This document shows, piece after piece, positions 9,634-34,435 of a stretch of DNA of 40,904 nucleotides. Made by a program: the position numbers and the translations under genes. The notes beneath the pieces are model-generated. The model worked only from the letters and a program-made list of their open reading frames with translations. It was not told where the DNA came from and searched no databases. This DNA is from Pseudomonadota bacterium (GTDB lineage Bacteria; Desulfobacterota; Desulfarculia; Adiutricales; JAGVGV01): contig JAHJTB010000411.1 of NCBI GenBank assembly GCA_018830135.1, forward strand, positions 1-40,904, written 5' to 3'. Each line of letters opens with the position of its first letter. The stretch's first letter is position 1.

Positions 9634-9700
9634 GACCGGGAAAGGAGGGCGGGCGTATGCTCCTGATTAAAAAAATGGCCTTTTGCAGCGGAGGGACCGG

Positions 9701-12700
9701 ATGCCGCGAACCGTCAAGACCTCGCTTCCGGAGGACTCGGACGAACGATTGCTGGCTCTGGCCGCCTTGTTCGAAGGGGAGTTTTGCATCGACTGGGTTC
9801 AGGCCTTGTCCGAGGCCCGGGCGTCCCGGATACTCAAGGCCTTCGATCGTTTCAGCCGGGAGGGGGTTCTGCGCAGGCATGACATCGGGATGTATTCCCT
9901 GGCCGATCCCAAAAGCCGGGGCCGGTTGCGGGCGGGACTTCCGTCCGACCGCTTGGAAGGGTATCATCGCCGGATCGCGGCCTTGTTCATGGACGAGTCC
10001 CCGGGCGACGAGGGCCTGTTTCGGGCGGCCCGGCAACTGCTGCGGATCGACAACGATCTGGAGGGCTGCCGGGTCCTGGGCCAGGCCGGGGACCAGTACC
10101 GGCGTAGCGGGCGGTCGGACGAGGCCCTGGCCTGCTATAACAAGGCCATAGAGGATCTCAGGAAATTAAAAGGCATCGAGGCGGATACGCTGTTCATCGA
10201 GACGGTGATCGGGTATTCAAAGGATCACCAGGCCATCCACTATTTAAAGCGGCTCATTTCGTATCTTCACGAGGCCCTGGAGCGGGCCGAGCGGTGGAAG
10301 AATCAAAGGCTTCAGGCTCTGGTCCTGATGCATCTGGCCTCGAACATCTACATCGGGCAAAACGCCGAGGCCGCCCAGGCCTACCTGGACCGGGGCTTTG
10401 CCCTGGCCCGGGACATCAACGACCCCAACGTGGAGCGGACGGTCATCACCGGGACGATCGTCAGCCATTTTTACTCCGGCCGGTACAAGGCCGCGGTCAA
10501 GATCTACGAAACCTTTGAGCCCCTGTTTGCCGAAAAATACCCGCTGCACCAGCTGTCCCTCCGCATGGGGGTCCTGATGGGTGTCTCCTACGCCTGCCTG
10601 GGCCAGATTTCCCAGGGCATGGGCCTCCTCGACGGGCTCCGGGTACACGCCTTGAAAATCCAGGACCACCATACTGCGGCCACGGCCGCGGCCGACATGG
10701 GCCTGGTACTCATGCTGACCAGCAGTTTCGACGAGGCCATCGAGCTGGTGAAGAAGGTTCTGGCCGAGTCGCCGGACAGCAACGAATTCGCCAAGTGTTT
10801 TTGTTCTTATTACCTGGCCTACTGCTTTTTCAGGAAAGGCGAACTTGAAACGTCCCGGCGTTACTTGGCCCGGGCCCTGAAAAAGAGCGATCAATACGAT
10901 TACGGGATCAAGTATCTGCCGTATTACATCGAGATCTGCCTGGCCGCCCAGCGGGGAGAATACCCAGCCCTGCCCGGCATGTCCCCGGAGGGTGACCTCC
11001 GGCAGATGACAACCGGAACCAATGTGGTCGCCGGAGGCGTGGCCCACCGTTGCCTGGCCATCCTGGCGGGTCGGGATCCGGCCGGCGAAGTCCGCTTCAA
11101 ACATCTGACCCGGTCTTTGGCCTTGCTCGAAGAGTCGGGACATGTCACGGAAATCGCCAAGACCCAACTGGAACTGGGGCGTCATTATCTGCTTTCGGGG
11201 GATACGGGCCGGGCCAGGGAACTGGTGGCTGCGGCAGTCAAGCCCCTCTATCCTATCGACCGGGGCCTGGTGCCCGAGGATTTGGAACACTTGGTCCGGG
11301 ACCTGCGCGTCGAGGACAACCTGCTGGAAGAGATCCTCAACCTCGGCCAGGAAGTCGTGGCCCTGCGGGACACCCAGGAAGTGGTCCAGCATATTTTTTC
11401 CACGGTCAACCGGATCACGGGCGCGGAACGGGGGGCCATTTTTCTGAAAACCGACGATCCGGGCTCAGTCCCCATCAAGTTGTGGGCGGCCAAAAATCTG
11501 ACCGCCGATGATGCGGCCCATCCTGAATTTTCGCCTTCGATCGAGATGATTGGGCGATCGGTCGATACGGGGCAAGCCGATATTCAAAATGTATCTCCGC
11601 CGCCCAATGGGGCCTCATTCTATAACGATACGATCAAATCGCGCATCTGCGTGCCCTTATCGCTGAGAGGCCGGACCATCGGGGTCCTGTACCACGACAA
11701 CCGGTTTTTCAAAAGCACGTTCAAGGAGCAGGACGTCAAGATACTGTCCTACTTCGCTTCCCTGGCCGCCATTGCCCTGGACAACGCCCAGGCCTACGAA
11801 GAAATCCGGCGCCTGAACCAGAGGCTCCAGGAAGAAAAGCAGTACCTGGAAGAACAGCAGCTCGAAAGCCTCCATCTCGACGATTTCGTCGCCGCCAGCC
11901 CGGCCATCAAGCATGTCCTGTCCATGGTCCAGCGGGTGGCCGAGACCGATTCCACGGTCCTGATCCTGGGCGAGACCGGGGCGGGCAAGGAAATGGTGGC
12001 CCGGGCCATCCACCAGCACAGCCCGCGCCGGGACAAGCCCTTCATCCGGGTCCATTGCAGCGCCTTCCCGGAAAGTCTGATTCCCAGCGAGTTGTTCGGA
12101 CACGAGCGGGGGGCGTTCACCGGTGCGGTGGAACGGCGGATCGGCCGCTTCGAACTGGCCGACGGAGGCACCATCTTTCTCGACGAAATCGGAGACATCC
12201 CCATGGGGGTCCAGGTCCGCCTGCTGCGAGTGCTCCAGACCAAGGAGTTCGAACGGGTCGGCGGCCGGGAAACCCTGCGCTCGGATTTCCGCCTCCTGGC
12301 GGCCACCAATCGAAACCTGGAAGAGGAGGTCGAGGCGGGCCGGTTCCGCTCCGACCTGTATTATCGTCTGAACGTATTTCCCATCCAGGTTCCTCCGCTC
12401 CGGGAACGACGGGAGGACATCGCCCCCCTGGCCGGCTATTTCCTGCGGGTCTATGCGGAAAAAACCGGCAAGTCCTTCAAGGGCATCCCGGAAAAGGAGA
12501 TGGCCCGGCTCCTGGCCTATCACTGGCCCGGCAACGTGCGCGAACTGGAAAACGTGATCGAACGGGGCGTCATCCTCAATGCCGGCGGCCTCTTTCTCAT
12601 TCCGGAACTGACTGCCGGGCCGTCCGACGCCCCGGCGGCCGGACTCGTCTCCCTCAAGGAAATGGAACGCCGCTTCATCATCGAGGCCCTCCAAAAGACG

Positions 12701-12832
12701 AACTGGAAGATCTACGGCCCGGGCGGCGCCGCGGAACTCCTGGACATCAACTACAGCACCCTGTACTCGAGGATGAAGAAACTGGGCATCCGCAAGCCCC
12801 GGAAGTCCACCGGGGATCGCTCCCGATCCTGA
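9701..12832 (+). CDS. Sigma-54-dependent activator with TPR, GAF, AAA+ and Fis-type HTH domains
   Basis: The product is 1043 residues from ATG 9701, which has GGAGGG at 9690-9695; the in-frame TTG at 9683 lacks one. A long helical TPR-like region spans ~110-520. A GAF sensor domain spans ~555-695 (RGAIFLK ... ICVPLSLRGRTIGVLYHDN). A coiled linker follows, then the AAA+ sigma-54 activation domain at ~730-955 with Walker A GETGAGKE (~756), GAFTGA (~804) and the Walker B region GGTIFLDEIGDIP. The C-terminal Fis-type helix-turn-helix is at ~985-1035. It has no receiver domain, so control is probably by ligand binding to GAF or by protein contact through the TPRs. Its position between the corrinoid operon and a sigma-54-promoted transporter operon suggests it serves one or both. 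Confidence 0.93.
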   Translation: MPRTVKTSLPEDSDERLLALAALFEGEFCIDWVQALSEARASRILKAFDRFSREGVLRRHDIGMYSLADPKSRGRLRAGLPSDRLEGYHRRIAALFMDESPGDEGLFRAARQLLRIDNDLEGCRVLGQAGDQYRRSGRSDEALACYNKAIEDLRKLKGIEADTLFIETVIGYSKDHQAIHYLKRLISYLHEALERAERWKNQRLQALVLMHLASNIYIGQNAEAAQAYLDRGFALARDINDPNVERTVITGTIVSHFYSGRYKAAVKIYETFEPLFAEKYPLHQLSLRMGVLMGVSYACLGQISQGMGLLDGLRVHALKIQDHHTAATAAADMGLVLMLTSSFDEAIELVKKVLAESPDSNEFAKCFCSYYLAYCFFRKGELETSRRYLARALKKSDQYDYGIKYLPYYIEICLAAQRGEYPALPGMSPEGDLRQMTTGTNVVAGGVAHRCLAILAGRDPAGEVRFKHLTRSLALLEESGHVTEIAKTQLELGRHYLLSGDTGRARELVAAAVKPLYPIDRGLVPEDLEHLVRDLRVEDNLLEEILNLGQEVVALRDTQEVVQHIFSTVNRITGAERGAIFLKTDDPGSVPIKLWAAKNLTADDAAHPEFSPSIEMIGRSVDTGQADIQNVSPPPNGASFYNDTIKSRICVPLSLRGRTIGVLYHDNRFFKSTFKEQDVKILSYFASLAAIALDNAQAYEEIRRLNQRLQEEKQYLEEQQLESLHLDDFVAASPAIKHVLSMVQRVAETDSTVLILGETGAGKEMVARAIHQHSPRRDKPFIRVHCSAFPESLIPSELFGHERGAFTGAVERRIGRFELADGGTIFLDEIGDIPMGVQVRLLRVLQTKEFERVGGRETLRSDFRLLAATNRNLEEEVEAGRFRSDLYYRLNVFPIQVPPLRERREDIAPLAGYFLRVYAEKTGKSFKGIPEKEMARLLAYHWPGNVRELENVIERGVILNAGGLFLIPELTAGPSDAPAAGLVSLKEMERRFIIEALQKTNWKIYGPGGAAELLDINYSTLYSRMKKLGIRKPRKSTGDRSRS

Positions 12833-21759: not shown

Positions 21760-22932
21760 ATGGACAACCGGGTCTTTGTCATTTCCTGTCCCGACTACGA
21801 CCAGTCCGGGGAAAAAACGGCCGAACTGCTGGACATGATGGGCGGCATGGAACGGTTCGCCGCCTCGGGAGAGTCGATCGCCCTGAAGGTCAATCTGCTT
21901 CTGGCCGCCCGGCCTGAAGACGCCGTGACCACGCACCCGGAAGTGGTCAAGGCCATGGCTTCCCTGGTCAAGGGCCGGGGCGCCGCCCCCCTGATCGTGG
22001 ACAGTCCGGGCGGCGGATACCGTTACAGCCCCAAGACTCTGGAAAAGACCTACCAGAAGACCGGGATGACCCGGGCGGCCGAGGAGTCCGGGGCGGAGCT
22101 CAACTGGGACTGCTCCCATCAACTGGTCTCCTTTCCCGAAGGGCGCCTGGTCAAGCGCTTCGAGGTCATCACCCCGGTCCTCGATGCGGACGGCGTCTTC
22201 AACCTGTGCAAGCTCAAGACCCACATGTTCACTTATATGACCGGCGCGGTGAAAAACCACTTCGGGGTCATCCCGGGATTGAGCAAGCCCGGGCACCACG
22301 CCAAACTTCGGGACACCGGACGATTCGCGGCCATGCTTCTGGACCTGACCGAACTGGTCGGGGCCAGGCTGTTCATCATGGACGCGGTCCTGACCATGGA
22401 GGGAGAGGGGCCCATGGCCGGCGAACCCAGGCGGGTCGGCCTGCTGCTCGGGTCCACGAACCCGGTGGCCCTGGACGCGGTCGGCGGGGAGATCATGGGC
22501 CTGGACCCGGAGAACAATCCGGTGCTGGTGGAAGCGGAAAAGCGCGGCCTCGGGCCGACCCGCCTGCGGGACGTGGACCTGGTCGGGATCGAGGCCCGGT
22601 CTTTGCGGGTCCGGGATTTCAAGGGACCCAGCACGTATTACGCCGGCCATGGTCTGGGCGCGTCGCCCTGGTACGTCAGCCTGTTTCTTCCTTTATTCAA
22701 GAACGGCATGTCCGTCCGGCCGAAAGTCGACGAAAAGAAATGCGCGGCTTGCGGAATCTGCGTCAAGGCCTGTCCCATGGGGGCGGTGGCCTTGAAGGAG
22801 AAACGGCATGCCTTTATTGACGACGACCTATGCATCCGCTGCTACTGTTGCCATGAAATGTGTCCGGAAAAGGCCATTGAACTGAGGCGAGGGCTCTTGT
22901 ACCGACTCATCAGGCCCGCGGGAGCGGTTTGA
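21760..22932 (+). CDS. DUF362 protein with C-terminal 2x[4Fe-4S] ferredoxin domain
   Basis: The product is 390 residues; GGAGGCG stands before the ATG. The DUF362 part (~1-300) contains the typical KVNLL, DADGVFNLCKLKTHMFT, TGAVKNHFGVIPGLSK and MDAVLTMEGEGP. The C-terminal part has two cluster motifs, CAACGICVKACP and CIRCYCCHEMCP. The second is slightly irregular because of an extra Cys. DUF362 proteins are common in anaerobes but their role is not settled. Electron transfer to or from the preceding flavoprotein is plausible from position only. Confidence 0.9.
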   Translation: MDNRVFVISCPDYDQSGEKTAELLDMMGGMERFAASGESIALKVNLLLAARPEDAVTTHPEVVKAMASLVKGRGAAPLIVDSPGGGYRYSPKTLEKTYQKTGMTRAAEESGAELNWDCSHQLVSFPEGRLVKRFEVITPVLDADGVFNLCKLKTHMFTYMTGAVKNHFGVIPGLSKPGHHAKLRDTGRFAAMLLDLTELVGARLFIMDAVLTMEGEGPMAGEPRRVGLLLGSTNPVALDAVGGEIMGLDPENNPVLVEAEKRGLGPTRLRDVDLVGIEARSLRVRDFKGPSTYYAGHGLGASPWYVSLFLPLFKNGMSVRPKVDEKKCAACGICVKACPMGAVALKEKRHAFIDDDLCIRCYCCHEMCPEKAIELRRGLLYRLIRPAGAV

Positions 22933-22980
22933 GGACAACGGGCCCTTCGCCCGGCCCCGAAAGAGAAAGATCGCCATCCC

Positions 22981-24024
22981 ATGCACATGTCAACCCATGA
23001 ATACAAGGACCTTCAGGCCTTCCACCATGACGCGCTCATCTTCGACATCCATTTTCACCCTCGATCGGCCCTGCCCGCGTTTTTTCGGCATATCGGACAC
23101 TTCTTTCTGCGCAAGACCATGCCGCCGCTGGAGGACCTGTCGGCCCTGGGCCCGGCCGGAGTGGACGGGTGCGCCCTGGCGGCCATCGGGGACAGCCAGA
23201 TCGGAGGGCCGTTTACCCTCAAGACGATTACCCGGTCGATCACCCGGCAACTGCAGCGATGCATCGAGGAAATCAACACCTGTGACGGCCGTATCGTGTA
23301 CGCCGCCGACGATATCCTGGCCGCGAAGCGGGAAGGGCGCCTCTCCTTTCTCCTGAGCCTGGAAGGCGGGAACATGCTTCGGGGGCCTGAAGATGTGGAA
23401 CTCCTCGACCATCTTGGCTTCCGGCTCCTGACCCTGGTCCATTTGAACGACAATTCGATCGGCCGCGTCGGCGCCAATACATGGAACTACTGGCGAAGGG
23501 GCTGCAACTCCGGGACTAAAAGCGGTCTGACCGCCCTGGGCGAGGTATGCGTCCGGAAAATGAACGCCCTGGGCATGATCATCGACGTGTCCCATTGTCA
23601 TCAGGCCACGGTCATGGATGTAGCCGGGCTGTCCAACCGGCCGATCGTGGCTTCCCATGCCGGCGCCCGGGCCGTGTCCGAGTTCCACCGGTATCTGCTC
23701 GACGATGAGATCGAGGCCATTGCCAGGACCGGCGGTCTGATCGGGCTGTGGCCCATGTACTACTGGGGCCGGGGGATGGCCGGAGCGGAGGATTTCAAGG
23801 CCCATCTGACCCACATGCTGGACCTCGTCGGCGAGGACCACCTGGCTATCGGGACGGACGTGCAAGGCATTCCCGGCCTGATGCCCGGATTCGGCGGGGT
23901 CAAGGACTACATCACCCTGACCGGTCTGTTGTTTGACGCCGGGCTGAACGAGAAACAGGCGCGCAAGGTTCTGGGCCTCAATTTCCTCCGGGTCCTGGAC
24001 GAGGCGACCGCCACGCGCCCATGA
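22981..24024 (+). CDS. M19-family (renal-dipeptidase-like) metallopeptidase
   Basis: This 347-residue TIM-barrel protein lacks a signal peptide. M19 landmarks are LSLEGGNML (bridging Glu), IIDVSHCH (His), IVASHAGARAV (His) and AIGTDVQG (Asp). The first metal motif is DIHFH (H24-x-H26), where M19 enzymes usually have HxD, so its metal site may differ. M19 enzymes cleave dipeptides, including Cys-Gly and L-D or D-containing pairs. The start at 22981 could equally be the ATG at 22987. The stop overlaps the next start (ATGA), which couples it to the PLP enzyme. Confidence 0.87.
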   Translation: MHMSTHEYKDLQAFHHDALIFDIHFHPRSALPAFFRHIGHFFLRKTMPPLEDLSALGPAGVDGCALAAIGDSQIGGPFTLKTITRSITRQLQRCIEEINTCDGRIVYAADDILAAKREGRLSFLLSLEGGNMLRGPEDVELLDHLGFRLLTLVHLNDNSIGRVGANTWNYWRRGCNSGTKSGLTALGEVCVRKMNALGMIIDVSHCHQATVMDVAGLSNRPIVASHAGARAVSEFHRYLLDDEIEAIARTGGLIGLWPMYYWGRGMAGAEDFKAHLTHMLDLVGEDHLAIGTDVQGIPGLMPGFGGVKDYITLTGLLFDAGLNEKQARKVLGLNFLRVLDEATATRP

Positions 24025-25115
24025 ACCTGCCTGACAGGCGATCGCCGCTTCTTTTCGATCGGTTCCCCGGCCTGGCCGGACGAATCCCCTGGATGCGTCT
24101 GGTCCCCTGTCCCACGCCGGTCCACAGGCTGGAAGCCGTGAGCGCCCGGTTCGGACACGAGGTCTGGATCAAGCGCGACGATTTGACCTCGCCGGAATAC
24201 GGAGGCAACAAGCCTCGCAAACTCGAGTTTCTGCTGGCCCGCGCGGCTGCTTCAGACAAGCGCGTCCTGTTGACCGGCGGAGGCATCGGCAGCAACCATG
24301 CCCTGGCCACGGCCTACTTCGGCCGTCAACAAGGCTTCCAGGTCATTCTGGACCTCTGCCGGCAGCCGGTGACCGAACACGCCTGTCTGAAACTCAGGCT
24401 GTTTCAGGCCCTGGGCGCCCGGATGCACTATGTGGGCGGCCAGTCCGGATTTGCCGTGCGTCACATTCTGGCCGGCCGCCTGCGCCATCCCGACGTGTTT
24501 TTCATTCCGCCGGGCGGGTCCGACTTTACCGGCACGCTCGGGTACGTGGAAGCGGGACTCGAAATCGCCGGGCAGATCGAGCGCAAGGAGATGCCGGTCC
24601 CCGAGACGGTCTTTATCGCCCTGGGTTCAGGAGGCTCGATGGCCGGGCTGGTTCTCGGCCTGAAGATCGGCGGCATCGGCAGCCGGGTCGTGGGGGTTCG
24701 CGTGGCCACCCCGCTGGCGGCCAACACGTGGCGGGTGACCGTCCTGGCTCGACTGACGGCCAGAGGCCTGCGGCGTATCGACTCCTTTCCGAGGCTGCCG
24801 GCCATCGTCCCCTCCGACGCCCCGGTCGTCGGCGATCAATACGGGGCGGGATACGGCCATGCCACGCCCGCCGGCCGGGAGGCGGCCGGGATGATGCTCG
24901 AACTGGAAGGCATTCGTCTGGACCCGACCTATACGGCCAAGGCGTTCGCCGCCCTTCTGGGTCACATAAGGGCCGGCGCGGCCGAGGGCCCCGTCCTGTT
25001 TCTGAACACCTACAGCGCGCAAGACCTGGCCGGCCTGGCCGAGTCCATGGATTCTGAAAACCTGCCCGCGGTCTTCCGGCGTTTCGTGGAAGTAACGCGC
25101 CGGCATCCCGATTGA
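24021..25115 (+). CDS. PLP-dependent D-cysteine desulfhydrase / ACC deaminase family enzyme
   Basis: This 364-residue fold-type II PLP enzyme has the Schiff-base Lys64 in YGGNKPRKLEFLL, matching GGNKTRKLEYL of ACC deaminase and D-cysteine desulfhydrase. Ser-Asn follow in GGGIGSNHALATA, and the phosphate-binding loop is LGSGGSMAGLVLG. Family members release ammonia from D-cysteine or related small amino acids. Sequence alone does not separate desulfhydrase from deaminase. Overlap with the dipeptidase gene suggests that an amino acid freed by the peptidase is its substrate. Confidence 0.88.
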   Translation: MNLPDRRSPLLFDRFPGLAGRIPWMRLVPCPTPVHRLEAVSARFGHEVWIKRDDLTSPEYGGNKPRKLEFLLARAAASDKRVLLTGGGIGSNHALATAYFGRQQGFQVILDLCRQPVTEHACLKLRLFQALGARMHYVGGQSGFAVRHILAGRLRHPDVFFIPPGGSDFTGTLGYVEAGLEIAGQIERKEMPVPETVFIALGSGGSMAGLVLGLKIGGIGSRVVGVRVATPLAANTWRVTVLARLTARGLRRIDSFPRLPAIVPSDAPVVGDQYGAGYGHATPAGREAAGMMLELEGIRLDPTYTAKAFAALLGHIRAGAAEGPVLFLNTYSAQDLAGLAESMDSENLPAVFRRFVEVTRRHPD

Positions 25116-25334: not shown

Positions 25335-27704
25335 ATGAAAGGCGTCGTTTTGCGAGGACTGCCCGGGGGCGGGCGCCCATATCCGCAAGCGATCATGGAA
25401 AGGCTGAGCGTGAAAGCGGCCGACCCGTGTTCATTGCCGTTTACAGGTGACGACACCACGGCGGGTTCGGAGAACGAGCTCCAGGCCGTGGTGCTGGGCC
25501 GGGCCTCGGACGTGGACCTGCCCATGGTGATCCGGGAGTCCAACTATTATAAAAACATCATCAAGCGGCAGCGCCGGGGGGACCTGCCCCGAAAGGCGGT
25601 CGGAGGGCTGGAAGACTGGCTGTCCCGTGATCCGGAGGTCTGGGAAAACAGTTGGGTCAGGCTGCCTCTCGAATCGCTGAGCCCGTTGGCGGCCGACGTT
25701 CTGGAAAGGGACCTGCGGGCCGCGCGAAGCGAGCCGGATTCCCCCCGCCGCGCGGACTCGGACCGGTTTCTGTTTCGCCAGAACGGCCGGGAGATGCTGC
25801 GGGTCCCGATCAGCTACCTGCTGAAGCTGGCCCTGGCCGACGCTGCCGGCCGCCGGGACCCGGGACCCGAATTTCGGGCCTTTGGCCTCAAGCTGGCCGA
25901 ACACTTTCTCTGCGACAATACCTCGCCGGAAACCTACTCGTTTCATATCGTTCGGGCCCCGGCCGGCCACGGCCCCGGCCGGGGTCTGGCCCGGGAAACG
26001 GCCCGCCGCTACCTGCTGACGCAACTCCTGACCCAATACGCCGACCATCGTTTCGGGCTGAAGGAAAGCGGCCAGTCGGTCCGGGCCTATTTCGCGCCCC
26101 ATCCGCCGATCCGTCAAAAGGAACTCAACGACTGCATCAGCGACTCCTTTTACCGGGAACTCTTCATGAACCCCTGCCTGTCCGGCTGGGAGCGGGGCGA
26201 GGAAAAGCAGCGTTACATGCACCTGTGCCACGAGGTCCTGTCCAGGGCCCAACTCAACGGCCTGGCCCGGCTGAAGGACGCGGGCATCGTCAACACCAAC
26301 CTGGTGGTCCTGCCGAGCGCGAGCAATATCAGCCTGGCCAACAACGGAGTCCATGTCAGCATCGGCAGTCGAATGCTGTCCGGGACCCTGGCCAGCGGGG
26401 ACCGGGATTTCGGGCCGGCCCAGGAAAAGTACGTGGGCGACCTGGCCATCAAGTTCGTCGAACATTTTCTGCCACTCTTCGTGAGCGCATACAGCGCCGC
26501 GCCGTACCGGCTGGACTTCGCGGATTTTCACCCCGAAAGGGTGCTCAGCTTTTTGCCCTACCAACTGGACTATACCCACCTGCGCATGATCTGGCGAAGG
26601 TGGAAAAAGAAGGCCCGGCTCAAGGCCCGGCCCTTGGGATTTCGGCTGACGCCCTTCGGTCCGCCCGTGCTGGACAATCTGTTGAGCCGGGCTCTGGGTC
26701 TGGAAGGCGATTTCCTGCCCGACTTCCGCCTGCTTGACTACCTGGTGGCCGTGATGAGCACCGACGAGTGTCCGGCCCTGGACGGTCGGCCGGGCAACCA
26801 GACCCGTCTGAAGAAGGACCTGGCCCATCTGGGGCTTTTTGATCCGGCCATGCCCGTGTATCTGCTCTACCGCCAGCGGGAGTTCGCCCAGATCGGGTTT
26901 TCCGGATTCGAAGGCCGTCATTACAGCCTGTTTGAAAGTCTCGAACGGGACATGGCCCCGGCCGTGGACATGCAGGTCCTCATCACCGCGCTGGCCTATA
27001 AACTCATGGCCCAGGGCCGCCTGGCCCACGCTATGATCCCGGATATTCCGGAGATAGAAAGCGAACGCCGCCAGATATTTTTCGGCGCGGCCATCGGGCT
27101 GCCCACCTTCTTTATCCGGGCGGATACCCGGAACGAGATTCTGGCCGATCTGGTTCGCCGGACACCCGGCGTGCGATCCAGCCACCGGTATGCCGGATAC
27201 GTCAGAGTGCGTCTGCGGCAGTATCTGCCCGCCCTGATCGCATACCTGCGGCGGGAAGCGGGAGACCTGGCCGAGGCCATGGGCATGACCCCGGTCCTGG
27301 ACGACTTGGAGGAACGCCTGGCCGACCCGGATGAGCACTCGGCCTTGAGTCGGCTCAGAACGGGCGTCCTGAATCATATGGGCCTCAAGGACCCCTTCCG
27401 GGCCGCCGCCGCCGAATTCAACCGGGCCGCCGAGGAATTTTACCGCCAGGGACTCCGACGCCGCCAGATCGCCGAGGCTTTCGGGGTCCTGGAAGACGAC
27501 CTGGCCGGTCTTTCGGGCGATCTGCTTCAAGGCCCCTCGTCGGATACCTGGGCCGGTCTGCGAAGAGCGGTATTGGAAGATCGGGCCGGGCCGGACGAGA
27601 TCGAGGACCTTATTTTTTTGCTCATCAAAATCATAGCCCTTCAGGAGGACCCGGAGTTGAAGGAAGCCCCGACGGAGGACCGGCGCCGGCCGGCATGGGC
27701 CTGA
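25335..27704 (+). CDS. Large uncharacterised protein, first gene of a lipid-related operon
   Basis: The product is 789 residues with no domain I recognise, no signal peptide and no clear membrane span. It is rich in Arg and Leu and probably mostly helical. Striking conserved-looking blocks are ESNYYKNIIKRQRRGDLP, WENSWVRLPLESLSP, FLCDNTSPETYSFHI, FAPHPPIRQKELNDCISDSFYRELF (26092-26166), NLVVLPSASNISLANNGVHVSIGSRMLSG (26299-26385) and QIFFGAAIGLPTFFIRADTRNE. The dense Asn/Ser/Gly block at 26299-26385 looks like an active-site loop. The start ATG 25335 has only weak AGGG upstream; ATG 25395 is an alternative. It overlaps the phosphatidylserine decarboxylase gene by 1-10 nt, so the two are almost certainly co-translated. 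Confidence 0.75.
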   Translation: MKGVVLRGLPGGGRPYPQAIMERLSVKAADPCSLPFTGDDTTAGSENELQAVVLGRASDVDLPMVIRESNYYKNIIKRQRRGDLPRKAVGGLEDWLSRDPEVWENSWVRLPLESLSPLAADVLERDLRAARSEPDSPRRADSDRFLFRQNGREMLRVPISYLLKLALADAAGRRDPGPEFRAFGLKLAEHFLCDNTSPETYSFHIVRAPAGHGPGRGLARETARRYLLTQLLTQYADHRFGLKESGQSVRAYFAPHPPIRQKELNDCISDSFYRELFMNPCLSGWERGEEKQRYMHLCHEVLSRAQLNGLARLKDAGIVNTNLVVLPSASNISLANNGVHVSIGSRMLSGTLASGDRDFGPAQEKYVGDLAIKFVEHFLPLFVSAYSAAPYRLDFADFHPERVLSFLPYQLDYTHLRMIWRRWKKKARLKARPLGFRLTPFGPPVLDNLLSRALGLEGDFLPDFRLLDYLVAVMSTDECPALDGRPGNQTRLKKDLAHLGLFDPAMPVYLLYRQREFAQIGFSGFEGRHYSLFESLERDMAPAVDMQVLITALAYKLMAQGRLAHAMIPDIPEIESERRQIFFGAAIGLPTFFIRADTRNEILADLVRRTPGVRSSHRYAGYVRVRLRQYLPALIAYLRREAGDLAEAMGMTPVLDDLEERLADPDEHSALSRLRTGVLNHMGLKDPFRAAAAEFNRAAEEFYRQGLRRRQIAEAFGVLEDDLAGLSGDLLQGPSSDTWAGLRRAVLEDRAGPDEIEDLIFLLIKIIALQEDPELKEAPTEDRRRPAWA

Positions 27705-28714
27705 TGGAACACCAATACGTCGAGCGAGCCACCGGCCGGGTGATGACCGAGCGGTTGACCGCGGACCGCTGGGTGAACCTGCTTTACGCCGAGGTCCGGG
27801 AGAACATACCTTTCCTTTTCCGGACCCTGACCGGCGCCCGGGCCTCGAGTCTGTTCGGGGAACTCTGGTTCGACCGCCGCCACGGTTCGTTGCGCAAGGC
27901 GGCGGCCCGTTTGATGCGGCAATGGGGCGTGGACCCGGCGGAGCTGTACGACGACCCCACCGCCCTGAACACGCCGGAAAAGCTTTTTTGCCGCCGCATC
28001 CGTTATTGGGAAACCAGACCGCTTCCGGCCGACGCCAAGGCCGTAGTCGCGGCGGCCGACAGCCGGGTGCTGGTCGGATCGCTTCGCGAGACGTCGGCCC
28101 TGTACGTCAAGAACAAATTTTTCAGCTTCGAGGAGCTTCTGGGCGCCGACAAGTCCGCCTGGCTCGATTCCTTTGCCTACGGCGATTTCGCCTTGTTCCG
28201 GCTGACTCCGGACAAGTATCACTACAATCATGTTCCGGCCTCGGGCCTGGTCCTGGACTATTACGACATCGAAGGCGCCTATCATTCCTGCAACCCGGAA
28301 GCCGTGGTCCGGCTGGTCACCCCCTATTCAAAGAACAAGCGCACGGTGACGATACTGGACACGGACCAGCCGGGGGGCACCGGCTGCGGCCTGGTGGCCA
28401 TGATCGAAGTGGCGGCCCTGATGATCGGAGACATTTACCCCTGTTACAGCGAAGAACGGTACGACCAGCCGAGACCGGTCCGGCGGGGCATGTTTCTGAA
28501 ACGGGGCCGTCCCAAAAGCCTGTTTCGACCGGGGAGCAGTACGGTCATTCTGCTTTTCGAGCCGGAGCGGGTGCGGTTCGAAGAGGACCTGGTCGCCAAC
28601 CAGCGGGTCGCCGGTGTCAAGACCCGTTTTTCCGCGGGCTTTGGCCGGCCCCTGGTCGAAACCGATCTCAGGGTCCGCTCGTCCGTGGGCCGGGCCGTTA
28701 TTAATTGCTATTGA
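27695..28714 (+). CDS. psd: Phosphatidylserine decarboxylase (pyruvoyl-dependent)
   Basis: The product is 339 residues; ATG 27704 is an alternative start overlapping the upstream TGA. The N-terminus (EHQYVERATGRVMTERL) and the catalytic core match type II PSD. Core landmarks are AADSRVLVG (candidate Asp), the signature FRLTPDKYHYNHVPASG with both His, GGTGCGLVAMIEV, and the autocleavage region FRPGSSTVILLFEP. In the last, GSS supplies the pyruvoyl serine and Pro stands where Leu is usual in LGS(S/T). The enzyme converts phosphatidylserine or a serine-headed analogue to the ethanolamine form at the inner membrane. It is flanked by the unknown 789-residue protein and an Lgt-like protein. Confidence 0.9.
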   Translation: MGLMEHQYVERATGRVMTERLTADRWVNLLYAEVRENIPFLFRTLTGARASSLFGELWFDRRHGSLRKAAARLMRQWGVDPAELYDDPTALNTPEKLFCRRIRYWETRPLPADAKAVVAAADSRVLVGSLRETSALYVKNKFFSFEELLGADKSAWLDSFAYGDFALFRLTPDKYHYNHVPASGLVLDYYDIEGAYHSCNPEAVVRLVTPYSKNKRTVTILDTDQPGGTGCGLVAMIEVAALMIGDIYPCYSEERYDQPRPVRRGMFLKRGRPKSLFRPGSSTVILLFEPERVRFEEDLVANQRVAGVKTRFSAGFGRPLVETDLRVRSSVGRAVINCY

Positions 28715-28724
28715 TGAGGAGACC

Positions 28725-29759
28725 ATGGAAGCAATCGTCTTGATCGTCGTGCTGGCCGTGTTGTACTCGGCGCTGCTGCGCTGGGCCTGCAAGACCCTGC
28801 CCGGTGAAAAGTGGCAGGTCATGGCCACGCTGCCCGTGGCTCGTAACGAGCAGGGCTGGAGCGGGATCAACATCACCTACTACGGATTTTTTCAGGCCTC
28901 GGCTTCGGCCCTGGCCCTGACCCTGGTTCTTTTCATGCTGGGGACCCTGGGGCTGGACTCCGGAAGGGCGTTTTTAACGACCGGTCCTTTGCTGGCCGCC
29001 GGTATGTGGGCCTCGAGTCATGTGGCCCGCATCGTGGAAAAGAAACCGGCCACCTTCACGGTGGCCGGTGGCGCTTTTACGGGACTGCTTCTGGCCCCGC
29101 CGGCCATCTGGGTCGGCCGGCGCTTCTTCGGCGTCGACCTGGGCCTGGTTCCTTTCCTGTCCGCCCTGGCCGTGGGTTACGCCTTTGGCGAAGGCCTGGG
29201 GCGATTGGCCTGCATCAGCTTCGGATGCTGTTACGGAAAGGCGCTGTCCGATCTTCCGGCCTGGGTCCAAAAGCTGGTCAAGGGCCGGGGATTCGTATTC
29301 AGCGGCCCGACCAAAAAAGTCTGTTATGAAGGCGGACTGGAAGGCACGCCGGTCCTGCCCATTCAGGCCCTCACCTCGGCCGTGAACGTGGGCCTGGGGC
29401 TCGCCGGCCTGTACCTCTTCCTGACCGGGCGTTTCACCGCCGCCCTGTTGCTGGTTCTGCCGGCGGTTCAGCTCTGGCGACTGTTCTCGGAAACGCTCCG
29501 GGCGGATTATCGAGGGGGGGGCAGGCTGACCGCGTATCAGATCATGGCCCTGGCCTCCATACCGATCGCCGCGGCCATCGTCCTTCTGTTTCCCGGCCGG
29601 GCCGCCATGCCGCGCCTGGCCTCCGGGCTGGACCTGCTCTGGGGTCCGGAGGTCTTGTTGGGCGTCGAGGCCGCCTGGGTGGTCGTCCTGTTGTATGTGG
29701 GCCGCAGCAAGGTCACCGGGGCCGATATCCGCTTTCACCTGATTGAAAGCCGGATATGA
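28725..29759 (+). CDS. Lgt-like (prolipoprotein diacylglyceryl transferase family) membrane protein
   Basis: The product is 344 residues from ATG 28725 with TGAGGAGA upstream, 10 nt after psd. It has about seven hydrophobic spans. The signature GEGLGRLACISFGCCYGK (~157-174) matches the Lgt-family Arg motif in its GCCYG form. A C-terminal FSETLRADYRGGGRLTAYQI corresponds to the conserved end of Lgt proteins. Canonical Lgt moves diacylglyceryl from phosphatidylglycerol to lipoproteins. This divergent form lacks the GRIGNFING asparagines and is more likely a paralogue with another acceptor. The psd coupling points to phospholipid chemistry. Confidence 0.78.
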   Translation: MEAIVLIVVLAVLYSALLRWACKTLPGEKWQVMATLPVARNEQGWSGINITYYGFFQASASALALTLVLFMLGTLGLDSGRAFLTTGPLLAAGMWASSHVARIVEKKPATFTVAGGAFTGLLLAPPAIWVGRRFFGVDLGLVPFLSALAVGYAFGEGLGRLACISFGCCYGKALSDLPAWVQKLVKGRGFVFSGPTKKVCYEGGLEGTPVLPIQALTSAVNVGLGLAGLYLFLTGRFTAALLLVLPAVQLWRLFSETLRADYRGGGRLTAYQIMALASIPIAAAIVLLFPGRAAMPRLASGLDLLWGPEVLLGVEAAWVVVLLYVGRSKVTGADIRFHLIESRI

Positions 29760-29934
29760 AGGCCTGAGGCGACGACCTCGAACCGGCGGCACTCCCGAAA
29801 ACAGAGGCCGTCACCGGATGTCAACCGGGACGAAATCATACTGACAATCCGAACCGTTATGCTGCGGCCATTCACAATGAAAGCGCATCCGAAGCGGATC
29901 GCCTCGCCAGAGGATGATTATTCGGGAGATTAAG

Positions 29935-32379
29935 ATGAAAGTCGACTTGCATCTCCATTCGAAACACAGCAAACGTCCGTCGCAATGGGTGCTGCAAAAG
30001 ATCGGATGTCCGGAGAGTTTCACCGAACCGGAGGCGCTCTATCGCTTCACCCGAAAGATGGGCATGACGGCCATGACCCTGACCGATCACAACACCATCA
30101 ACGGCTGCCTGGAAATAGCCCAGCTGCCGGCCGTTTTCATCAGCGAGGAAGTGACGACCTATTTCCCGGAAGACGGCTGCAAGGCGCATGTTCTGGTGTA
30201 TGACATCGACGAATCCGTTCACAAGGACCTGCAACGAATCCGGCCCGACATATACGAGTTGACCGCCTACCTTCAGGAACACGGAATCGTCCATTCCCTG
30301 GCCCATCCCCTGTTTTCGATCAACGATCGGCTCAGGCCCGAGCATTTTGAAAGATTTCTGCTTCTGTTCAAGGTTTTCGAACTCAACGGCGCCCGGGACG
30401 AAGTCCAGAACCGGATTCTGGCCCAGGTTCTTGGCTTGCTGACTCCGGGCAAGATCGAAGAGCTGGCGAACCGGTACGACCTGGAGCCCGGCTTTCGGGA
30501 GCCCTGGAAGAAGGGATTGACCGGCGGTTCGGACGATCATAGTTCCCTGTCCGTGGCCCGGATGCACAGCCACGTACCCGGCGCCGCGAGCGTGGCGGAA
30601 TTCCTGGAGGCCGTGGGCACGGACCGCTGCCGGCCCAAAGGGCGAGGATCGAGCCCGCGGACCCTGGCCCATCACCTGTACGGCATCGCCTATCAGTTTT
30701 ACAACCGCCGCCTCAACCTCGAACAATACTCCCGCCAGGACGTATTGATGCGGTTTCTGGACCGAAGTCTGAAACCCGAATCGTCGGCCGGCGGAGACGT
30801 GCTGATCCGATTGCGGGGGCTCTGGAACCGGAGAAGTCGCCGGTATAAGGCGAATTCCGGCAAGCTCGAGGACGTGTTGAGGCTCGAAGGCGAAAAAATG
30901 ATCTACGCCGACCCGGGGTTGTTGAAAATCGTGCGCAACCGGGGCGGGAGCGCCGAAGACAAGGATGAAAGGTGGTTCGGTTTCGTATCCCAGATCAGCA
31001 ACCAGGTCATGCTCCATTTCGGAGAGGACGTTTTCAGCCGTCTGAGCGGGGTCAACGTTTTCAGCATTTTCAACGCCATTGGTTCGGCCGGCGCCTTGTA
31101 CAGTCTGCTGGCCCCGTATTTCGTGGCCTTCAAGCTTTTTTCCCGGGATGCCCCCCTGGCCCTGGAAATCCGGAATTCCCTGGCGCCCGTCGGCAACGAT
31201 TCGTCCGGCGCGGACCGCGAACCGCGGGTGGCGCACTTCACGGATACCTTATTCGAGGTAAACGGCGTGGCTCAGACGTTGAGGCAGCAGGCCCGGATAG
31301 CTGCCGAGACCGGCAAGGCCCTGGACATCATCACCTGCGCCCGGGCGCCCCATGAGAATCTGGAACGGGTGGTCTGTTTCGAGCCGGTCTCGGTCCACGA
31401 GCTGGCCGAGTATCCCGAACAGAAATTGCTGATTCCGCCGTTTCTGGAAATGCTGAACCACGTTTACGAACGCGGCTACAACTACATCCATTCGGCCACG
31501 CCCGGGCCGATCGGCCTGGCCGCCCTGGGAATCAGCCGCATCCTGGGCCTGCCGATCAGCGGCACCTATCACACCGAGCTGCCCCAGTACGCCGCCTATC
31601 TGACCGGGGACGAAGCCGTCGAGCAACTGGTCTGGCGATATACGCTTTGGTATTACGACCAGATGGATTTCGTTTACGTGCCCAGCATGGAGACGGGACG
31701 GGAACTGGTGGAGAAAGGGCTCAAACCGGACAAGGTTCGACACTACCCGCGCGGGGTGGACCTGGAAAGATACCACCCTCGATTTCGCAACGGTTTTTAT
31801 CAGCTTCGCCACGGTTTGGGCGACGAGACGAAATTGATCTACGTGGGACGGGTCAGCAAGGAGAAGAATCTGCCCCTGCTGGCCGGCGTGTTCAAGACAC
31901 TTTCTCCCATGCTACCCGGCCTCCATTTGGTGATTGTGGGCGAGGGGCCTTACCTGGCGGAGATGCGAAAGGAACTCACCGGATACCCGGTCACGTTCAC
32001 CGGATACCTGTCCGACGGCGACCTGTCGGAAGCGTACGCCTCGGCGGACCTGTTCGTGTTCCCTTCCGCTACGGACACGTTCGGCAACGTGATTCTCGAA
32101 GCCCAGGCTTCGGGTCTGCCGGTCATCGTCACCGACACGGGCGGCCCCCGGGAGAACATGAGGGACAAGGAAACGGGCCTGATCGTCCCGGCCGGCGATC
32201 CCGATGCGCTCCGCGCGGCCGTGCTCGAACTGGCCGGCGATCCCCTGAGGCTCAAAAAGATGGGGCGGGCCGCCAGACGGTACGTCGAAAACCGGTCTTT
32301 CCAAAAGGCCTTCATGGAACACTGGAAACTGTACAGCCGGGAAACGTCCGTCGATCCGGCTCTGGCCAAGGCAAGCTGA
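29935..32379 (+). CDS. PHP-domain / GT4 glycosyltransferase fusion
   Basis: The product is 814 residues from ATG 29935 (GGGAG 6 nt upstream; ATG 29914 lacks one). An N-terminal PHP phosphoesterase domain spans ~1-260, with HLHSKHS, LTDHNTINGCLE, SLAHP and GGSDDHSS as metal-binding motifs. A ~160-residue linker follows. The C-terminal GT-B family 4 glycosyltransferase spans ~430-800, with DTLFEVNGVAQTL, GTYHTELP, PRGVDLERY, YVGRVSKEKNL and ATDTFGNVILEAQASGLPV. The GT4 half resembles enzymes that glycosylate diacylglycerol or phosphatidylinositol. The PHP half may hydrolyse a phosphate from the product or donor. A radical SAM gene follows 12 nt later. Confidence 0.9.
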   Translation: MKVDLHLHSKHSKRPSQWVLQKIGCPESFTEPEALYRFTRKMGMTAMTLTDHNTINGCLEIAQLPAVFISEEVTTYFPEDGCKAHVLVYDIDESVHKDLQRIRPDIYELTAYLQEHGIVHSLAHPLFSINDRLRPEHFERFLLLFKVFELNGARDEVQNRILAQVLGLLTPGKIEELANRYDLEPGFREPWKKGLTGGSDDHSSLSVARMHSHVPGAASVAEFLEAVGTDRCRPKGRGSSPRTLAHHLYGIAYQFYNRRLNLEQYSRQDVLMRFLDRSLKPESSAGGDVLIRLRGLWNRRSRRYKANSGKLEDVLRLEGEKMIYADPGLLKIVRNRGGSAEDKDERWFGFVSQISNQVMLHFGEDVFSRLSGVNVFSIFNAIGSAGALYSLLAPYFVAFKLFSRDAPLALEIRNSLAPVGNDSSGADREPRVAHFTDTLFEVNGVAQTLRQQARIAAETGKALDIITCARAPHENLERVVCFEPVSVHELAEYPEQKLLIPPFLEMLNHVYERGYNYIHSATPGPIGLAALGISRILGLPISGTYHTELPQYAAYLTGDEAVEQLVWRYTLWYYDQMDFVYVPSMETGRELVEKGLKPDKVRHYPRGVDLERYHPRFRNGFYQLRHGLGDETKLIYVGRVSKEKNLPLLAGVFKTLSPMLPGLHLVIVGEGPYLAEMRKELTGYPVTFTGYLSDGDLSEAYASADLFVFPSATDTFGNVILEAQASGLPVIVTDTGGPRENMRDKETGLIVPAGDPDALRAAVLELAGDPLRLKKMGRAARRYVENRSFQKAFMEHWKLYSRETSVDPALAKAS

Positions 32380-32391
32380 GGTTCTCCGACA

Positions 32392-33678
32392 GTGGAAATT
32401 CCGATCAAGAATCTGCTGCATCTCGCTACGGGGCGACCGCCCGGGCAGCTCGTGATTCAGTTCACCGACAAGTGCAATGCCCGGTGTCCCCAATGCGGCA
32501 TGCGGGTGACCAACCGATTCAAACGCTGTACCCTGGCGACCGAGGAAGTCAGGCGAATCATCGATGCCGCCGCCCGCAAGGGTTTTGCGGCGGTTTCCTT
32601 CACCGGCGGCGAGCCGTTGATCGAGCCGGAGGAACTGATTTCCCACCTCGAATACGCCGACCGGGCCGGAATACCCTACACCCGTACCGGCACCAACGGC
32701 TTCCTGTTCGCGCGAGCGGACGGCAACGGGTACATGGACAATATCAAACGCCTGGCCGACCGGCTGGCGGCCACGGCCCTGCGGAACTTCTGGATCAGCC
32801 TGGATTCCGCGGACCCGGGCGTCCACGAAACGATGCGGGGCCTGCCCGGCGTAGTCAAGGGCATGGAAAAGGCGTTGCCGATCTTTCATGAACGGGGACT
32901 GTTCCCCAGCGCGAATCTCGGACTCAACCGCAACACCGGCGGAAACCAGGCTATCCCCGACAGGCCCTCCGATCCGGACGACCGGGCCTATCTCGACGAC
33001 TTCGAAGAGGCTTTTTATCTCGCCTTGCAGGCCTTCTACGATCGGATCGTCTCCTTGGGATTCACCATGGTCAACACCTGTTATCCCATGAGCGTGGATC
33101 AAGACGAGATCGAACAGCAGGGCCTGAGCGCCGTTTACGCCGCCACATCCCCGGACGATGTGATCCGGTTCACCCGGGCCGAAAAGGCACGGCTTTTTCG
33201 AGCGCTGCTGCGGGCCGTGCCCGAATACCGCTCGCGCCTTCGCATTTTTTCTCCCCTGGTCTCCCTGTACTCCTTGGCCAGGGACTATGAACCCGGCGGG
33301 ACGCCGGCTTCGTATCCCTGTCGAGGGGGACATCAGTTCTGGTTCGTGGATGCTCGAAACGGCAATACCTACCCCTGCGGTTACCGGGGCGGGGACGGAT
33401 ACGGCAAGTTTTACAATCAAAATGGGAACGGAAGGCGGAGCAAGCCGGACTGCCGCGGTTGCGATTGGGAGTGCTTTCGGGACCCATCCGAACTGATGGG
33501 CCCCATTTCGGAGGGATTCACCTCCCCATTGGGTCTGCTGAAGAGATTACGCCGCGATCCGCAACGCTTCCGGTACTGGCTGGAAGACCTGCGCTACTTC
33601 CGGGCCTGCGGATTTTTCGATGGACGCCGCCCGCCCGATGGCCGAAAGCTGGAAGCGTTTGGCCCGGGACGATGGTAG
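32392..33678 (+). CDS. Radical SAM protein with C-terminal cysteine-rich region
   Basis: The product is 428 residues with a GTG start 12 nt after the glycosyltransferase stop. The [4Fe-4S] site is C28-N-A-R-C32-P-Q-C35, and SAM-binding features include FTGGEPLIEPEE and LRNFWISLDSADPG. The C-terminal part carries extra cysteines (YPCRGG, TYPCGYRGG, DCRGCDWECF) consistent with a SPASM-like or single auxiliary cluster. The reaction is unknown. Its place between a glycosyltransferase and a DedA gene suggests modification of a lipid or sugar precursor. Confidence 0.88.
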   Translation: MEIPIKNLLHLATGRPPGQLVIQFTDKCNARCPQCGMRVTNRFKRCTLATEEVRRIIDAAARKGFAAVSFTGGEPLIEPEELISHLEYADRAGIPYTRTGTNGFLFARADGNGYMDNIKRLADRLAATALRNFWISLDSADPGVHETMRGLPGVVKGMEKALPIFHERGLFPSANLGLNRNTGGNQAIPDRPSDPDDRAYLDDFEEAFYLALQAFYDRIVSLGFTMVNTCYPMSVDQDEIEQQGLSAVYAATSPDDVIRFTRAEKARLFRALLRAVPEYRSRLRIFSPLVSLYSLARDYEPGGTPASYPCRGGHQFWFVDARNGNTYPCGYRGGDGYGKFYNQNGNGRRSKPDCRGCDWECFRDPSELMGPISEGFTSPLGLLKRLRRDPQRFRYWLEDLRYFRACGFFDGRRPPDGRKLEAFGPGRW

Positions 33679-33853
33679 TCGGGTTCGTCCCGCGCGCCGG
33701 AACCGGTTTCCGGTTGCCGTTCCGTATCCTCCGAGTCTCTCCCCGCATCGATCCGACGTGGTTCCGGCGATCGCCATCGGCCGAGGGTAACCCAATCGTC
33801 CATCACAACATTTATTATCGGCCTTTGAGATTTTTCTTGGGAAGCCACAGAAC

Positions 33854-34435
33854 ATGGAATTGAATTATATAATTGAATTCGGGTATTTGGCAATATGGAT
33901 CGGCACGATTATCGAGGGTGAGACCTTTCTGCTCATGGCCGCCCTCGCCGCCAGCTACGGCCTCCTGGACCTGCGGACCGTCATCCTTCTGGCCTACCTG
34001 GGCTCCCTGACCGGGGACTTGATATTTTTCGGCCTGGGACGTCTCCAGGGGCGAGGCTTTCTTGACAGCCGCCCGCACTGGCGCGTTCGCGCCGACAAGG
34101 TCCTCAGGCTGGTCTCCAGACACAAGATCAAGGTCCTTGTTTTATATCGGTTCGTGTACGGCTTCAGGGGGGTGACGCCTTTCATCTTCGGCCTGACCCG
34201 GATGCCCGCCTGGCGCTTTTTTCAGGTCGTGGCCCTGACGGCCCTGGTCTGGTCCTCGATGACCGGCGGCTTGGGCTATCTGTTGGGGGACCGGCTGAAG
34301 GGATGGGGCGTGACCTTTTCTGAAATACAGTTCTGGTTTCTGGGCACGACCTTTTTGGCCCTGCTGCTTTACATTCTGGGCAACAAAATCAGGCAATCCC
34401 CCGGGAAGAAGCAAAAAGAACATAACGAAGCCTAA
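33854..34435 (+). CDS. DedA-family membrane protein (VTT domain)
   Basis: This 193-residue protein has four to five hydrophobic segments. The family landmarks are EFGYLAIWIGTIIEGETFLL, GSLTGDLIFFGLGR and the re-entrant/arginine motif YRFVYGFRGVTPFIFGLTRM, equivalent to GRFxPGxRT...AG. Some DedA proteins flip phosphatidylethanolamine or undecaprenyl phosphate across the inner membrane. It follows the radical SAM gene by 175 nt and may move the lipid made by the cluster. The 175-nt gap has no gene. Confidence 0.9.
   Translation: MELNYIIEFGYLAIWIGTIIEGETFLLMAALAASYGLLDLRTVILLAYLGSLTGDLIFFGLGRLQGRGFLDSRPHWRVRADKVLRLVSRHKIKVLVLYRFVYGFRGVTPFIFGLTRMPAWRFFQVVALTALVWSSMTGGLGYLLGDRLKGWGVTFSEIQFWFLGTTFLALLLYILGNKIRQSPGKKQKEHNEA

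Follow-up and report, generated by a model that had tools for sequence, protein, structure and literature searches.

Three adjacent genes on the forward strand of a 40,904-nucleotide stretch of DNA (the window) form a conserved, co-inherited unit. They encode U789 (25335..27704), a soluble protein of 789 amino acids in which hydropathy analysis revealed no transmembrane segment, a phosphatidylserine decarboxylase (PSD; 27695..28714; PF02666, E 3.5e-38) and LGTL (28725..29759), a polytopic membrane protein with the Lgt fold, which represents a diverged subfamily with conserved extra N- and C-terminal segments. U789 represents a new protein family, modelled with the fold of the glutamate-cysteine ligase (GCS) superfamily, and probably functions as an ATP-dependent carboxylate-amine ligase. 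The trio may constitute a three-enzyme pathway to a diacylglycerol-anchored, amide-bonded amino-lipid, a proposal whose chances we regard as evenly balanced.

The ORF coordinates confirmed the tight packing noticed in an earlier, sequence-only reading of this DNA, according to which the three genes overlap or lie at most 10 nt apart. As listed, the PSD gene starts with the ATG at 27695 and overlaps U789 by 10 nt. Since PSD homologues begin near MxHQYIER, its true start is likelier to be the ATG at 27704, within a TGATG that overlaps the end of U789. The longest mechanical start of the LGTL ORF is the GTG at 28614; the most likely start is the ATG at 28725, 10 nt past the PSD stop and preceded by a Shine-Dalgarno sequence (GAGGAG).

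U789 was found in 36 of 296 genomes of the phylum, representing 32 genera, and LGTL in 37. All 36 genomes with U789 also encode LGTL, and the locus of the 37th LGTL genome is broken by a contig end. Nearly every one of the 80 public loci repeats the order U789-PSD-LGTL, among them loci from Brocadia, Nitrospinota and Planctomycetota MAGs. The distance matrices of the three proteins were concordant (Spearman 0.53-0.55), a value reached in none of 500 permutations. Identity among 88 homologues is 93% or higher at a quarter (25%) of the positions of U789, a conservation too strong to be accidental. The sequence-only reading had taken the neighbourhood for a conserved unit and would have given the idea up if it were confined to one genome; the 36 genomes, the 80 loci and the concordant distances show that it recurs far beyond its source. 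In Desulforhopalus singaporensis, U789 is present and both LGTL and the trio-type PSD are absent, indicating that U789 can act there without its partners. Searches of plasmids gave no match, and neither the trio nor a ligase making gamma-glutamyl lipids was described in the literature searched.

A survey of ORFs of at least 110 aa revealed no constant fourth gene beside the trio. A frequent, although optional, neighbour encodes a protein with a PHP domain and a GT4 glycosyltransferase (29914..32379, forward strand; Pfam). It accompanies the trio at about 20 of the 80 loci and is enriched in trio genomes (13/36, against 40/296 overall), but was rejected as an obligatory fourth gene because only those 13 encode it. 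Further downstream on the same strand are genes for a radical SAM protein (32392..33678; PF04055), an optional neighbour present at 9 of 80 loci, and for a DedA/VTT-family membrane protein (33854..34435; PF09335), also optional, which recurs next to the radical SAM gene at loci L040, L045, L060, L063 and L066. The upstream genes for an M19 dipeptidase, a PLP enzyme and a DUF362 protein were rejected as pathway members, since they are absent at all other loci.

Sequence and profile searches with U789 gave no Pfam, NCBIfam or PDB match, in agreement with the earlier impression of a large protein without recognisable family. A role in anti-phage defence was rejected, as a PADLOC search gave no match. 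The AF2 model of U789 was obtained with a pLDDT of 89.3 and a pTM of 0.92. Its best 11 PDB fold matches were all GCS, GshF, PafA or Dop: in the Foldseek search 1v4g ranked first (E 1e-3, prob 1.00), followed by 3ln6 and 3nzt and then by PafA and Dop (prob 0.72-0.94), with E-values of only about 1e-3 and TM scores of 0.4-0.5. Outside the GCS superfamily no listed match exceeded prob 0.11, and a viral fold library returned nothing. Sequence profiles left the link to GCS unconfirmed. PF04262, the family of GCS proper, was unmatched in 43 U789 homologues at E-values up to 5, and hhalign comparison with a single GshA and with a profile built from nine GCS sequences reached at best E 0.034 and prob 1.5%. 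The best aligned segments (U789 625-681 with GCS 400-458, and GSENELQ with GLERE) are consistent with the fold and individually non-significant.

Invariant residues resembling an active site were identified in four segments of U789. The codons of E46-N-E48-L-Q50 (25470..25484), within GSENELQ, specify residues that vary little or not at all across 73 homologues; we propose this segment, which profile comparison aligns locally, though weakly, with GCS GLERE, as the counterpart of the metal-ligand strand bearing GCS E27 and E29. N337-G-x-H340-x-S-x-G-S345 (26343..26369), with N337, H340 and S345 invariant and a model strand at 339-345, would correspond to the H150 strand, and G524-F-E526-x-R528-x-x-S-L (26904..26930), with G524, F525, E526, R528 and S531 invariant and a model strand at 523-530, to the strand of E328 and R330 (YIEVRSLD). 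More tentatively, D194-N-T-S-P-E199 (25914..25931), in which D194, N195, S197, P198 and E199 are invariant, is a possible counterpart of the E67 strand. On the grounds of motif and order, E46, E48, H340, E526 and R528 would correspond to the GCS residues.

In the trio PSD, D122, H176 and H179 are invariant and align with E. coli Psd. S282 (codon 28538..28540), in a GSST motif, is the predicted self-cleavage and pyruvoyl serine; it aligns with the serine of E. coli LGST and is 99-100% conserved. The catalytic motifs are thus intact, as had been proposed. The protein nevertheless scored below the equivalog cut-offs of NF001941 (134 vs 371 bits) and TIGR00163 (78 vs 112 bits).

LGTL matched PF01790 with 27.9 bits against a cut-off of 24.9, and this family was detected in 39 of 40 LGTL homologues (E 0.001). 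Its AF2 model (pLDDT 93.6) had a single confident PDB fold match, E. coli Lgt (5azb, prob 1.00). Y53, R160, R252 and E256 of LGTL are the counterparts of Y26, R143, R239 and E243 of E. coli Lgt; R160 belongs to the segment R160 to G171 (GRLACISFGCCYG; codons 29202..29237), and the last two to R252 to E256 (codons 29478..29492). The catalytic Tyr/Arg/Arg/Glu set is therefore retained, contrary to the suggestion that LGTL lacks canonical Lgt residues. LGTL has other residues in place of E. coli Lgt H103, N146, E151 and Y235, and so has the ileS-lspA-linked Lgt of the same genome, whereas the HPTQLY site is altered in LGTL and kept in the lspA-linked protein. As most losses are common to the genome's own lspA-linked Lgt, they do not support the new acceptor that had been deduced from them. 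A stronger case for one comes from the redundancy of LGTL alongside further Lgts, its constant pairing with the ligase, the change at HPTQLY and the conserved segments added at both ends.

A separate, stronger Lgt and another PSD are encoded in the source genome and in each of the ten other carriers checked, which include four single-contig genomes. LGTL and the trio PSD are therefore not the housekeeping copies, and this possibility, which the sequence-only reading had held against its own proposal, was rejected.

In the pathway that we propose, U789 would act as a GCS-fold ligase that uses ATP and metal to phosphorylate a carboxylate, probably that of an acidic amino acid, and would then link it to an amine as an amide. 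The pyruvoyl enzyme of PSD type would remove the alpha-carboxylate from the amino-acid head group, making or trimming the amine, and LGTL would transfer diacylglyceryl from phosphatidylglycerol or a similar donor to the small-molecule head group. Computation established the folds, the invariant residues that resemble an active site, the co-inheritance and the distinct housekeeping genes; we infer the amide-bond chemistry, the order of steps, the substrates and the product. A precedent for the chemistry is provided by GlnA4, a glutamine-synthetase-type ligase that amidates ethanolamine to gamma-glutamylethanolamide (PMC6529630). The unconfirmed profile link to GCS and the unpartnered U789 of Desulforhopalus singaporensis count against the pathway. 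So does the lipid record of Desulfatibacillum alkenivorans, a trio carrier (L048), in which the only phospholipids reported are PE, PG and cardiolipins (PMC11150832), suggesting that whatever the trio makes is scarce, formed only under certain conditions or something other than a phospholipid. The earlier lipid hypothesis thus keeps the conserved unit, the separate housekeeping genes and, very likely in view of the GCS-superfamily fold, U789 as the missing enzyme; its argument from missing Lgt residues falls. A non-lipid family for U789 had been named as evidence against it, and an amide-forming ligase fold is indeed not a lipid family, yet it fits a head-group ligase.

The intact active-site residues of the trio PSD would also suit the synthesis of a modified PE: PSD would form PE or a PE-like amine, U789 would amidate it with glutamate or another acid, and LGTL would add a second diacylglyceryl group or remodel the head group. 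DedA and GT4 families are often linked to envelope lipids, and their recurrence near the trio speaks for this route, as does the gamma-glutamylethanolamide made by GlnA4 (PMC6529630). However, a second PE-making PSD calls for explanation when a housekeeping PSD exists, and such a lipid is missing from the Desulfatibacillum alkenivorans lipidome (PMC11150832); we consider this route unlikely. Slightly more doubtful is a phosphate-free thioether lipid, for which U789 would produce a cysteine-containing gamma-glutamyl-type compound, LGTL would S-diacylglycerylate its thiol as Lgt does on lipoproteins, and PSD would decarboxylate the free amino-acid end. The nearest fold of U789 is indeed that of gamma-glutamylcysteine synthetase, the acceptor of Lgt is a cysteine thiol, and LGTL retains the core catalytic residues. 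PF04262 GCS turned up in 0 of 59 genomes of the phylum, so that U789 is not accounted for by ordinary glutathione synthesis, and a phospholipid survey could miss a lipid without phosphate (PMC11150832). This scheme nevertheless requires PSD to act on a non-phosphate head group and U789 to use cysteine, and the fold resemblance does not fix which amino acid is used.

Two further explanations appear improbable. LGTL and PSD, with their retained catalytic residues, might be spare lipoprotein and PE enzymes, and U789 an unrelated ligase merely carried along in their operon, but U789 and LGTL co-occur almost absolutely over 32 genera despite changing surroundings, and LGTL is a distinct subfamily with added conserved segments. 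The least probable reading is an Atg8-PE-like conjugation, in which a PafA-like U789 would attach a protein or peptide, through a carboxylate, to the amine of a lipid prepared by LGTL and PSD. PafA and Dop do figure among the fold matches of U789, but the GCS fold is nearer and, among ORFs of at least 110 aa, the trio has no constant fourth gene.

Returning to the proposed amino-lipid pathway, a large, highly conserved enzyme family that has no entry in databases is linked gene-for-gene with two lipid enzymes in 32 genera of one phylum, and U789 also reaches anammox, Nitrospinota and Planctomycetota MAGs. It is possible, with chances somewhat short of even, that a dedicated ligase-decarboxylase-diacylglyceryl transferase pathway makes a previously unrecognised class of bacterial lipid, an amide-bonded, possibly thioether, diacylglyceryl amino-lipid, with U789 founding a new, lipid-acting branch of the GCS superfamily and LGTL being an Lgt-type enzyme that uses a non-lipoprotein acceptor. 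If so, anaerobe membranes would contain a new lipid class, the GCS ligase fold would extend to lipid chemistry, and Lgt, a lipoprotein enzyme, would gain a second kind of acceptor. The pathway is directly testable by expression and lipidomics.

Among known systems, glutamate-cysteine ligase of the E. coli GshA type (PF04262; 1v4g, 2d32, 3nzt) shares its overall fold with the U789 model; its ExE, HxS and ExR strands have proposed, invariant U789 counterparts in the same order, and its C-terminal helical region shows a weak in-register alignment. U789 is about 270 residues longer, has no detectable sequence family match and is accompanied by PSD and Lgt-like genes instead of glutathione synthetase. 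The Pup ligase PafA and the depupylase Dop share the superfamily fold with weaker matches than GCS, but no Pup-like partner gene adjoins the trio among surveyed ORFs of at least 110 aa. GlnA4, which uses free ethanolamine in ethanolamine utilisation (PMC6529630), is a precedent by chemistry. PRK00723-type PSD (NF001941) resembles the trio PSD in its Pfam domain, Asp/His/His/Ser catalytic set and long N-terminal region, whereas the trio PSD has GSST in place of LGST and nearly always lies beside U789 and LGTL. Finally, LGTL has the fold of Lgt (5azb, PF01790) and counterparts of Y26, R143, G154, R239, E243 and R246; it differs at H103, N146, E151, Y235 and HPTQLY, carries an extra N-terminal helix and strands and a C-terminal GRSxVT...SFHV segment, and is joined in every checked carrier by another Lgt.

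Listing the ORFs of the window placed the three genes, all on the forward strand, where the sequence-only reading had put them: the 789-aa protein U789 (25335-27704), a phosphatidylserine decarboxylase-type pyruvoyl enzyme (PSD, ending at 28714) and the Lgt-like polytopic membrane protein LGTL (28725-29759). U789 terminates in TGA (27702-27704). Although PSD is listed from ATG 27695, its homologues begin at MxHQYIER, which makes ATG 27704 the likelier start; the first base of this codon is also the last of the U789 stop (TGATG), an overlap typical of coupled genes. For LGTL, the most likely start is ATG 28725, 10 nt past the PSD stop and preceded by GAGGAG. Across loci, the median distance from the U789 stop to the invariant PSD His is 3 nt, and that from the PSD stop to the inferred LGTL start is 18 nt.

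Scanning an 84,980-species genome collection yielded 80 loci, whose record titles include Desulfobacterota, Candidatus Brocadia, Nitrospinota, Nitrospirota, Planctomycetota and Victivallales MAGs. In 77 of them U789 is followed by a trio-type PSD, and about 71 contain LGTL, bearing out the trio as a conserved neighbourhood; nearly all loci missing either gene reach the end of the contig or of the available stretch. Locus L034 was rejected as an exception, U789 being intact there with its tail masked. One true exception is Desulforhopalus singaporensis, a natural instance of U789 in a different context: its diverged U789 (L068:9833-12256) adjoins molybdenum-hydroxylase-type genes, by reading of the ORFs, and neither trio-type PSD nor LGTL was detected in this genome. 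Of 296 phylum genomes at least 90% complete, 36 encode U789 and 37 a member of the LGTL subfamily, with all 36 U789 genomes carrying both; because these genomes are related, the counts do not represent independent events. The 37th LGTL genome carries PSD and LGTL at the terminus of a 12,777-nt contig. The trio is scattered over 32 of 199 genera, as would fit a unit gained and lost jointly, and the pairwise distances of the three proteins agree (Spearman 0.53-0.55; 0 of 500 permutations equally high). The trio is a real, conserved, unexplained unit and not a local accident.

No constant fourth gene was found beside the trio among ORFs of at least 110 aa in the 80 loci. Genes for a PHP-domain/GT4 glycosyltransferase (PHP-GT4, window 29914-32379; about 20/80), a radical SAM protein (32392-33678; 9/80) and a DedA-family protein (33854-34435) recur close by and may serve tailoring or transport of the product, though they are optional. 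All three (window 29914-34435) are grouped by the trio in L060 and L066, and the first two in L019 and L023; in L023 these two sit between PSD and LGTL. PHP-GT4 is encoded by 40 of the 296 genomes, so that about 5 of the 36 trio genomes would be expected to have it, and 13 do; it is also found in genomes without the trio. In one genome, a 471-aa ORF with a HAD-like DxDGT motif near its start separates PSD from LGTL (L034:13611-15026). Genes upstream on the same strand (21760-25115), for a DUF362-ferredoxin, an M19 dipeptidase and a D-cysteine desulfhydrase/D-cysteate lyase-like PLP enzyme, were not seen by the trio in other loci. A large sigma-54 activator with a NifA/FhlA-like AAA domain (9683-12832) precedes a branched-chain amino acid ABC transporter and an AMP-binding ligase; this group is probably an unrelated catabolic cluster.

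U789 had been described as lacking a recognisable family, which holds for sequence matches in Pfam, NCBIfam, PADLOC and PDB, and structure prediction, proposed at the same time, placed it. An AlphaFold2 model from 73 homologues (pLDDT 89.3, pTM 0.92) matched best to E. coli gamma-glutamylcysteine synthetase (E 1e-3, prob 1.00), then to GshF, Francisella GshA, PafA and Dop. All of the top 11 PDB matches belong to the glutamate-cysteine ligase (GCS) superfamily; among the 50 matches listed, those outside it had prob <=0.11, and a viral fold library gave nothing above prob 0.16. Of the 789 positions, 199 are conserved at >=93%. From motif and order, we infer that the E. coli GCS residues E27/E29, H150 and E328/R330, whose metal role is established, have putative counterparts in E46/E48 (GSENELQ), H340 (NNGxHxSxGS) and E526/R528 (GFEGRxYSLF); D194-E199 may, tentatively, be the counterpart of the E67 strand. 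The relation is not established by sequence profiles on their own; on the model, U789 is very likely a GCS-superfamily ligase and as such would probably form amide bonds at the expense of ATP. None of the 59 phylum genomes searched contained PF04262, which makes glutathione synthesis an unlikely context.

In the trio PSD the catalytic motifs are intact, as noted earlier, with the Asp, both His and the self-cleavage Ser retained; its equivalog scores fall under cut-off. That PSD and LGTL are simply the housekeeping copies was rejected. The genome holds separate lgt and psd genes, a search for which had been suggested: two further Lgt genes (231 and 211 bits, versus 26 for LGTL) and three further PSDs, one adjoining a PssA-type CDP-alcohol phosphatidyltransferase. 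All 10 further trio genomes tested, four of them single-contig, likewise encode one or more Lgt proteins with far higher scores (193-275 bits) as well as a further PSD (143-155 bits). One own-genome lgt (L094:1495-2274, contig C185) follows the end of IleS and an LspA-type ORF; the second, canonical one, on contig C176, may be a contaminant, given the 6% contamination of the MAG.

Best supported is a three-enzyme route of predicted chemistry, in which U789 would form an amide bond, PSD would decarboxylate and LGTL would transfer diacylglyceryl, giving an amide-bonded, diacylglycerol-anchored amino-lipid or lipidated small molecule. Of the earlier proposal of a lipid pathway with U789 as the missing enzyme, U789 is now placed by fold, and the lipid reading is plausible, unproven. 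Desulfatibacillum alkenivorans PF2803 carries the trio (L048), and only PE, PG and cardiolipin classes were reported for it on hexadecene (PMC11150832), so the product would be a minor or conditional compound, one linked to lipid and not itself a bulk lipid, or one that this analysis did not cover.

The components are variations on known enzyme types, and no report of their combination into a pathway was found in the literature searched. For U789, a precedent is GlnA4, a glutamine-synthetase-type ligase amidating ethanolamine (PMC6529630). The LGTL model (AlphaFold, pLDDT 93.6) has E. coli Lgt as its sole confident PDB fold match; counterparts of Y26, R143, G154, R239, E243 and R246 are kept, whereas H103, N146, E151 and Y235 are replaced. 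The sequence-only reading took such losses to indicate a new acceptor, which was not borne out, because the lspA-linked C185 Lgt, a GRLGCLAAGCCYG variant, replaces the same four residues and has the GCCYG motif in common with LGTL. LGTL differs from this Lgt in being altered at HPTQLY and in its added conserved N-terminal (WQ..P..W..N.TYYG) and C-terminal (GRSxVT..SFHV) segments.
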